Assembly (NCBI GenBank): GCA_029263035.1
Contig: JAJCYF010000057.1
Coordinates: forward strand, 1 to 39,892
Source: Actinomycetes bacterium
GTDB lineage: Bacteria; Actinomycetota; CADDZG01; JAHWKV01
DNA: 39,892 nt
Direction: 5' to 3'
The translations under genes and the position numbers were made by a program. This document shows positions 32,933 to 34,990 of the stretch, one piece after another; positions within the stretch are counted from its first letter, which is position 1; each line of letters begins with the position of its first letter. A model generated the notes under the pieces. The model was not told the origin of the DNA, did no database searches, and saw only the letters and a list, made by a program, of their open reading frames with translations.

Positions 32933-33484
32933 ATGAAGCCCTGGCTGGTAGTCGTGTGCGGACCTTCCGGGGGCGGTAAGTCCTCGATCGCCGGGCGCCT
33001 GTCGGAACGCCTGAACATTCCGTTGATCGGCAAGGACGAGTTGAAAGAGGTGCTGTTCGACAGCCTGGGATGGGGGGACCGGGAGCAGAGCCGGAAGTTG
33101 AGCGATGCCGCCTACGAGCTGATGTTCCACCTCGCCGAAAGGCACCTGGCAACGGGCAGTTCGTGCATCCTGGAGGCGAACTTCCGGCCCGAAATGGCCG
33201 AGAGGCTGGCCGCTCTGGCCGAGACCGGCCCGTTAAACGCGGTGACCGTCCGCTGCTCCGCCGATCCGCAGGTGCTGCGGGAACGCCTGAGGCTCAGGGC
33301 CGAGCAGGGGCTGCGCCACCCCGGCCACCTGGACGCTGAGTTGCTGGCGGAGGTCGAAGGTTTGATCGGCGAGGGGTCGGTGGAGCTCGGGGGACCGCTG
33401 CTGGAGGTGGACACGACCGAACCGTCGAGGGTCAACATCGAAGAAATCGCCAGACGGGTCAGGGATTTGACCGGTCGCACATAA
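32933..33484 (+). CDS. P-loop kinase/AAA_33-type ATPase
   Basis: LVVVCGPSGGGKSSIAGRLSERL Walker A, nucleotide-kinase-like layout. Confidence 0.75.
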   Translation: MKPWLVVVCGPSGGGKSSIAGRLSERLNIPLIGKDELKEVLFDSLGWGDREQSRKLSDAAYELMFHLAERHLATGSSCILEANFRPEMAERLAALAETGPLNAVTVRCSADPQVLRERLRLRAEQGLRHPGHLDAELLAEVEGLIGEGSVELGGPLLEVDTTEPSRVNIEEIARRVRDLTGRT

Positions 33485-33489
33485 AAAAG

Positions 33490-33571
33490 GGACCTTGAAC
33501 CGGGCCAAAGCTACAGCGGTCCGCGGGAGGCGGGGGCGATTATGACCTCACTCCGACCCGGTTCAAGATCC
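33490..33571. ncRNA. Structured element A (hairpin; minus-strand U tract)
   Basis: GGA-C-CTTGAACCGGG (33490-33504) pairs with CCCGGTTCAAG-A-TCC (33557-33571); minus strand continues into TTTTTT (33483-33488). Confidence 0.5.
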
Positions 33572-33693
33572 GGTACTTGTTGCCCCATCTATATCGGCAG
33601 GAAGCCGCCGGCGATAAGCACTATTCGTGAATATCATCACTGAGAGTGGTAGGAAAGGTGGCTCAAGCGGCGAGCGAGCCTGGAGTAAACAGA

Positions 33694-33751
33694 GGCCGGA
33701 CCCGAGTGATCGCTGGGGGGCGGGGGTTGTAGTCCACACTCGGGTCCGGCC
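33694..33751. ncRNA. Structured element B (15-bp perfect stem hairpin)
   Basis: GGCCGGACCCGAGTG (33694-33708) / CACTCGGGTCCGGCC (33737-33751), loop contains GGGGGGCGGGGG (C-rich on minus strand). Confidence 0.5.
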
Positions 33752-33917
33752 ATCTGAATTTGTTGCTGCTCTACTTATCGGCAGAAACTTAACATCGTTA
33801 ACCTGTCATTTCAAAATTGTTCGGTAACCCGGGGAACTTGGGTGCGGGGTTCGTCCGTCAAATGGCCATTCAATCCATGAGCCTAGAACTATGAGCCCTA
33901 GACCAAGGAGCCGGGAA

Positions 33918-34916
33918 ATGCGGAAACGACTGATCGCAGGGATGGCGTTGCTGAGTCTGCTTATTCTGGCGGCCGCCTGCAGCCGGGGCGACGATAGTGC
34001 ACAGACCGAGCTCTCCGGACCGGTCAGGGGTGAGGCGCCCGCCGAGTCATCGGCAGAGGATGGCAAGCTGGCGGCCCCCGACGCCCCCACTGCCGACACG
34101 GATGTGACTCGAGGCGGCTCCGGTGGGAGCGGCGGCGGGGACGGAGGTGGGAGCGGTGCTTTTGCCGGGACTACCAGCGGAGGATCGGATCAAGCGTCCC
34201 TGCCGGGCATCCCGGAGGTTCCGCCGGCCGGCAGCGGGCGGGTTATCAAGAACATCTCGCTGGAGATCGAAGTCAAAGAGGACCAGTTCCAGCGCCAGTT
34301 CAGCCGGGCAGGATCGCTGGCGGAGCAGTTCGGGGGGTTCGTGACCAACTCGCAGGTGAGCGAGACGGACGGCGAGCTGTCCTCCGGCACGCTGACCGTC
34401 CGGGTTCCCTCGGATCGTTTCGAGGAGGCGGTCGGCCGGCTGAAGGACCTGGGCAAGGTGACTGCCGAGGATCGTAGCGGGCAGGACGTTACCAAGCAGT
34501 TCGTCGACCTGGAGGCCCGGCTCAAGCAGGCCAAAGCGGAGGAGGCCTTCTTCCTGCGCCTGATGGACGAGGCCGAAGGCATCTCCGACATGATCCAGGT
34601 GCAAAGCCACCTCTCCGGCGTCCAGCTACGCATCGAGGAGATCCAGGGACAGCTCAACTTCCTGAGAGATCAGACCGCCCTGTCCACCATCTCGGTCCGG
34701 GTTTATGAGCCGGGCGCCCCGGCGTCGGGCAATCCCCAGCCGCTGACCGAGGCGTGGGAGGGTGCGATCGACGGATTCCAGTCGGTGATCGGCAGCCTGG
34801 TGGTGGCGGTCGGGTGGCTGGCGCCCTTCGGATTGATCGCGCTTGCCGGGTTGTTCGTGCTGAAGCTCCGCAACCGGCCGAAGGTGGAGCCGGCGGCGGA
34901 TCCGCCTGCGGCGTAA
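33918..34916 (+). CDS. DUF4349 lipoprotein
   Basis: Lipobox LAAAC, low-complexity Gly/Ser linker, VIKNISLEIEVKEDQF...coiled-coil...STISVRVYEP, C-terminal TM. Confidence 0.85.
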   Translation: MRKRLIAGMALLSLLILAAACSRGDDSAQTELSGPVRGEAPAESSAEDGKLAAPDAPTADTDVTRGGSGGSGGGDGGGSGAFAGTTSGGSDQASLPGIPEVPPAGSGRVIKNISLEIEVKEDQFQRQFSRAGSLAEQFGGFVTNSQVSETDGELSSGTLTVRVPSDRFEEAVGRLKDLGKVTAEDRSGQDVTKQFVDLEARLKQAKAEEAFFLRLMDEAEGISDMIQVQSHLSGVQLRIEEIQGQLNFLRDQTALSTISVRVYEPGAPASGNPQPLTEAWEGAIDGFQSVIGSLVVAVGWLAPFGLIALAGLFVLKLRNRPKVEPAADPPAA

Positions 34917-34919
34917 CCG

Positions 34920-34990
34920 AGCGGGTGAGGGGAATCGGACCCCCGCCTGAAGCTTGGGAAGCTTCCGTTCTACCATTGAACTACACCCGC
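34920..34990 (-). tRNA. tRNA-Gly (CCC anticodon)
   Basis: GCGGGTG acceptor, GTTCAATGGTAGAAC D arm, GAAGC-TTCCCAA-GCTTC anticodon arm, GGGGG-TCCGATT-CCCCT T arm, U discriminator; CCA not encoded. Confidence 0.95.

Follow-up and report, generated by a model that had tools for sequence, protein, structure and literature searches.

We have found two tandem small-RNA-like units on the minus strand (33483-33801) of the window, i.e. the whole stretch of 39,892 nucleotides that was analyzed, each consisting of promoter-like paired boxes and a brief leader, followed by an extended hairpin whose loop is rich in C. We consider it probable that these units, A and B, are tandem small-RNA genes transcribed from their own sigma-28-family promoters by a WhiG-like sigma factor; their products may pair with G-rich RNA. 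The promoters, structure, conservation, and absence of coding are supported at the level of sequence comparison, and we infer that the RNAs are made and that their transcription depends on the WhiG-like sigma of the host. The source genome (G000), from an uncultured and apparently non-flagellated actinobacterium, is a draft of 2.5 Mb and 81% completeness, and the genome-wide statistics given for it cover 323 kb (13%). Comparisons were made with a genus set of four genomes (G000, G003, G004, and G005) and a class set of 24 genomes including these.

Hairpin structure and gene context

A preliminary description of the region had pointed to two tandem stems, and both hold: the arms of A (33490-33504 and 33557-33571) are complementary at 14 of 15 positions and those of B (33694-33708 and 33737-33751) at 15 of 15, and both hairpin cores fold better than shuffled sequences. 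In the fold of the minus strand, the helix of A reaches 22 bp with G-U pairs. The B stem is directly flanked by an outer helix (CAGA/UCUG), which G005 and G003 also form but from other bases, the variants seen in the folds across genomes being CAGA/UCUG, UCAGUC/GACUGA, and GCAGAG/CUCUGC. Against 200 dinucleotide shuffles, the fold z-scores of the G000 hairpin cores are -4.7 (A) and -6.9 (B), and those in the other genus genomes range from -3.2 to -5.9, with 0-1 of the 200 shuffles equally good. The C-rich loops described for both elements are likewise present on the minus strand; CCCCCGCCYCCC occurs in both, and the loop core common to A and B reads GAGUG(A/U)GGnC..A..CCCCCGCC(C/U)CCC.

Table 1 Features of the A/B locus (window coordinates).
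Feature	Position	Strand	Basis or remark
Kinase-like gene AAA_33	32933..33484	+	Convergent with A; neighbor kept in 4/4 genus genomes
Predicted RNA A, with leader, clamp of 22 bp, loop rich in C, and T6 tract	33483..33584	-	Terminator-like in G000, G005
Stem-loop A	33490..33571	-	Inverted repeat, orthologue alignment, fold
C-rich loop motif of A, CCCCCGCCTCCC	33525..33536	-	
Putative -10 of A promoter (GCCGATAT)	33591..33598	-	Invariant in 4 genomes
Putative -35 of A promoter (TTAT)	33614..33617	-	TTAT-N15-GCCGATAT
Possible second small hairpin after B (GGCTC...GAGCC)	33660..33684	-	Also in G005; missing from G003
Predicted RNA B: short leader and C-rich-loop hairpin	33690..33768	-	Folds, covariance model, synteny; 3' end uncertain
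Stem-loop B, 15-bp inner stem	33694..33751	-	Inverted repeat, fold
C-rich loop motif of B, CCCCCGCCCCCC	33715..33726	-	Kept in G005 and G003
Putative -10 of B promoter (GCCGATAA)	33775..33782	-	Sigma-28/WhiG type
Putative -35 of B promoter (TTAA)	33798..33801	-	TTAA-N15-GCCGATAA; spacing same in G005, G003
DUF4349 gene	33891..34916	+	Divergent from B; neighbor kept in 4/4 genus genomes

RNA B presumably starts ~7 nt past its -10 box, and the small hairpin that follows B could possibly form its 3' end. The preliminary description also had A running into a TTTTTT tract, which is correct for G000 (A6 at 33483-33488 of the forward strand) and G005 but not for G003 and G004. A conserved stem plus T tract, as in an intrinsic terminator, is thus lacking, the tract of A being limited to two species and B having none, and no clear terminator was seen for B, nor for A in G003 and G004.

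The stop codon of the convergent kinase gene lies just before hairpin A, and the position of the T6 tract right after it would suit an action in cis, as long 5' leader or terminator/attenuator hairpins; A would then serve as terminator where convergent transcripts meet, B would belong to the leader of one WhiG transcript, and neither would have a role in trans. We find this unlikely, given that the minus strand past A and B holds no gene that either RNA could lead, that each hairpin has a separate promoter, and that identity in the A loop (90%) exceeds that in the 3' stem and tail (74%), which would not be required of a terminator. Moreover, G003 and G004 have lost the T tract and yet retain stem, loop, and promoter, which argues that A and B are not merely terminators.

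Conservation, covariation, and probable relatedness of A and B

DNA searches found A in all four genus genomes and B in three of them (G000, G005, and G003), G004 having A without B, and the gene order kinase - A - (B) - DUF4349 is identical throughout. The G003 locus lies on two contigs (C119 and C108) that both end at B, so the assembly broke at the B hairpin. Directly downstream of the DUF4349 gene, the window carries a tRNA-Gly (CCC) gene (34919-34990, minus strand), and a tRNA also follows at the corresponding locus of G005 and G004.

Between G000 and G005, identity reaches 90% in the A loop, 91% in the A 5' stem, 75% in the B loop, and 97% in the B promoter (28 of 29 positions in the -10/-35 block); third codon positions of the kinase gene are 56% identical in the same comparison. 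Every species retains the C run, in A and, where present, in B as well, even though G004 has a 2-nt deletion. The preliminary description had called the stems covarying because those of A and B differ in sequence yet stay paired; this difference is not in itself covariation, but each element aligned with its own orthologues does display compensatory pairs (3 for A and 2 for B). The observed covariation scores were reached by shuffles in 16 out of 500 cases for A (4 sequences) and 65 out of 500 for B (3 sequences), so that with so few sequences covariation alone is not decisive. When the stem partners were slid by 1-3 columns, pairing fell from 95-98% to at most 62%.

The statement that no open reading frame explains the region agrees with our comparison, in which no reading frame over A or B is conserved across the four genus genomes. 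That the conserved entity is a short coding region is hardly credible: short frames exist, e.g. MAGPECGLQPPPPSDHSG... over B, but the start codon is kept in neither G005 nor G003 and indels of 1-2 nt break the frames in A.

A covariance model of A finds B at E values of 3e-6 and 3.5e-5; conversely, A is detected by the model of B with E values of 4e-4 to 0.04. This cross-detection partly reflects the promoter common to both; although it raises the scores, the common loop core together with the mutual detection indicates a duplication, and by sequence A and B are probably paralogous. The idea of duplicated C-rich-loop small RNAs, put forward in the preliminary description, is well supported as an inference by the conserved structure, the individual promoters, the common loop core, and this cross-detection.

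In Rfam, no match to A or B reached the gathering score; tRNA-Gly was the only family above it within the window, and Atu_C10, BjrC174, and mir-561 appeared below their curated scores. Among the other 20 class genomes the models found no convincing member, the single weak match being in G017 (E 0.39). A wide pattern search of GTDB genomes with GCCGATAW-N32..62-CCCCCGCCYCCC returned at least 117 stretches. On the 80 pattern matches listed, the A model recovered only the congener contig carrying B, and weakly so (E 0.41); the remaining stretches among the matches listed look like chance occurrences. No further A/B-like copy was found in 323 kb of G000. A REP-like element had also been proposed for this region, and two palindromes with common flanks at 184 bp do recall a tandem duplication of a REP-like or insertion-derived palindrome. 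We judge such an origin very improbable, as A and B occur once each per genome with no dispersed copies found, in a synteny fixed in four species, and have their own promoters.

Putative promoters and the WhiG-like sigma factor

The flanking motif TATCGGCAG recurs at 33592 and 33776, a spacing of exactly 184 bp where about 184 bp had been noted. The motif is real, but its identity had been missed: judged by its sequence, CTGCCGATA corresponds to the -10 element of promoters of the sigma-28/WhiG type. The consensus common to flagellar sigma factors and WhiG is -35 TAAA and -10 GCCGATAA, according to PMC8325347. The A and B boxes comprise such a -10 element with a -35-like element ~15 bp upstream, of sequence TTAA or TTAT rather than TAAA; in the congeners, the -35 of A is TTAT or TTAA at N15 in G004 and G003, and at N16 in G005.

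The pattern TTAW-N15-GCCGATWW has 22 matches in the four genus genomes, versus 0 for the reversed pattern. Downstream of these matches we found A, B, an RNA candidate termed C, a gene for a secreted CAP-domain protein (G000, G003, and G005), a TadE/G-like gene (G000; Pfam PF13400), a TadE-like gene (G004; by eye), a gene for a zinc-ribbon-looking small protein (G000 and G003; by eye), and a lipoprotein-like gene (G000). On contig C93 of G003, two successive Flp-like pilin genes (by eye) each have their own WhiG-type promoter, suggesting that WhiG controls a pilus in a genus without detectable FlhA.

A FliA/WhiG-family sigma factor was matched in all 24 class genomes and exceeded the curated cut-off in 23 of them. 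The sigma factor of G000, the candidate cognate of these promoters, is over the cut-off of TIGR02479, also matches an entry named WhiG, and is closest to the solved chains 6pfv/6pfj (2e-85), ahead of FliA (4e-45); we take these chains to be Streptomyces RsiG-WhiG complexes. Its gene adjoins rpsB (G000:C241), as Streptomyces whiG presumably does too. FlhA (FHIPEP) is present in only 1 of the 24 class genomes (G007:C210:11959-13902, outside this genus) and was not detected in the four genus genomes, which suggests that flagellation is uncommon in a class where this sigma family is present throughout. In the unicellular Rubrobacter, type IV pili are reported to be under WhiG with an identical promoter consensus (PMC8325347). 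Based on the nearest structures, the rpsB neighbor, the rarity of FlhA, and the Rubrobacter report, we favor the view that this sigma factor is WhiG-like and serves a pilus/surface regulon.

Candidate partners and comparison with known systems

In the mechanism that we propose, the WhiG-like sigma would transcribe A and B from separate promoters, and each RNA would amount to about one hairpin, whose clamp of 15-22 bp exposes the C-rich loop core. Acting in trans, the loop would base-pair with mRNAs or other RNAs at G-rich stretches. The most plausible partners are members of this regulon (pilus and secreted CAP-domain protein transcripts and the G-run hairpin RNA C), and the pairing would alter the translation or stability of the partners. 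That A and B act as small RNAs at all appears likely; if they do, pairing with G-rich RNA is the likeliest mode of action, which we put forward tentatively.

A run of G6-7 occurs within the leader in 3 of the 5 transcripts of G000, other than A and B, that have a WhiG-type promoter, e.g. the TadE/G-like leader, which carries G6. In controls, the frequency of runs of G6 or longer is 3% among intergenic windows and 6.5% among leaders; the post hoc binomial values for the enrichment are 0.0003-0.0025, and as it was noticed after the fact it is only suggestive.

The CAP-domain gene encodes a secreted protein with CAP (PF00188) and Calx-beta domains and has a WhiG-type promoter in G000 (C68), G005 (C180), and G003 (C21). 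It is found in the three genomes having B and not in G004, which is without B; a tandem second copy lies on G005:C180, with no exact promoter match seen before that copy. In all three species, the leader has G6 inside a hairpin covering the start codon, the G runs pairing with C's around the AUG, and this conserved hairpin is possibly a translational switch.

RNA candidate C was located in G000 (C136; L016 1482-1690, plus strand) and G005 (C16:13172-13369), antisense-oriented in the gap that separates a Ser/Thr kinase gene from an ABC transporter gene. It has a WhiG-type promoter and a terminator-like end (in G005, a hairpin followed by T's); of its three conserved runs of G5-7, two sit in clear hairpin loops. 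Since it was not found in G003 or G004, it cannot be an obligatory partner.

Potential targets were ranked by duplex energy minus opening energy, i.e. corrected for accessibility, against 309 control leaders. The ranks for A and B, respectively, were 127 and 111 for the CAP leader, 209 and 141 for the TadG-like leader, and 58 and 141 for RNA C, so that no target stands out among the leaders compared; in the CAP leader, the local hairpin over the start codon already takes up the G run. The suggestion that the loops pair with Shine-Dalgarno sequences found no backing here, as loop-target energies singled out no leader. Of two control leaders among the best-scoring ones, L225 looks like a chance match and L227 is an intergenic B-loop-like stretch without the long stem.

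The absence of a clear target from pairing energies, the very long clamps, and the conservation of the loop outside its C run (GAGUGnGGnC) would also suit RNAs that are made but bind protein or serve as RNase III substrates instead of pairing with G-rich RNA. We hold this to be improbable: A and B alike retain the C run across the species, as for antisense loops, and G runs are enriched, by a post hoc count, in co-regulated leaders. A more elaborate form of the pairing mechanism, in which the C-loops of A and B un-mask or repress leaders with G runs (e.g. the CAP start-codon hairpin) and RNA C titrates them within a WhiG-regulon circuit, is speculative, and we have little confidence in it.

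If true, the small-RNA reading would mean that WhiG of unicellular, apparently non-flagellated actinobacteria also drives small RNAs, and it would place post-transcriptional control within the WhiG regulon. Given the type of promoter, the prediction could be tested in a relative that carries WhiG and is in culture, or else in a heterologous host, and covariance models are now built for an RNA family absent from Rfam.

Among known RNA families, the Rhizobiales small RNAs Atu_C10 (RF02497) and BjrC174 (RF02355) gave weak covariance matches to B of 17.1 and 15.7 bits, far below their gathering scores of 60 and 45, respectively. They resemble B in that a GC-rich stem carries a C-rich loop, but belong to another phylum, and the resemblance is likely due to chance or convergence. 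The 6C RNA of Actinobacteria, which we take to be RF01066 (alias B11/ncRv13660c), carries two C6 hairpins within one short RNA. Like A and B it is actinobacterial and has C-rich hairpin loops, whereas A and B have one hairpin per gene, a clamp of 15-22 bp, and a sigma-28 promoter; its Rfam model gave no match to A or B, even at E 5. The 6C RNA is reported to bind mRNAs via its C-rich loops without chaperones, going by the title of Mai et al. 2019 in the references of PMC9569102. The C-rich loops of sX13 of Xanthomonas repress mRNAs with G-rich motifs in an Hfq-independent manner (PMC3771888). As in sX13, stable stems presenting C-rich loops are conserved in A and B; in contrast, sX13 has three stem-loops in one RNA, an unrelated sequence and host, and proven regulation, whereas the targets of A and B are only candidates.

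Small RNAs within a sigma-28 regulon are also known, e.g. the sigma-28-dependent UhpU, MotR, FliX, and FlgO of E. coli (PMC10578931) and the FliA-dependent CJnc170/FlmR of Campylobacter (PMC11187230). These come from flagellated Gram-negative hosts, whereas the host of A and B has no detected FlhA and a WhiG-like sigma; those of E. coli are UTR-derived, and no sequence is known to be common to these RNAs and A/B. In Rubrobacter, WhiG is reported to drive pilus genes (PMC8325347), and in Streptomyces it is reported to drive sporulation. The WhiG regulon of these genera shares with A and B the promoter consensus and sigma type, and includes pilus genes among its targets, but the targets named in the passages considered from PMC8325347 are protein genes and the word 'noncoding' does not appear in its text. 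A and B are thus a genus-restricted pair, new as a family but, judging from their sequences, of a known kind, i.e. C-rich-loop and sigma-28-linked small RNAs.
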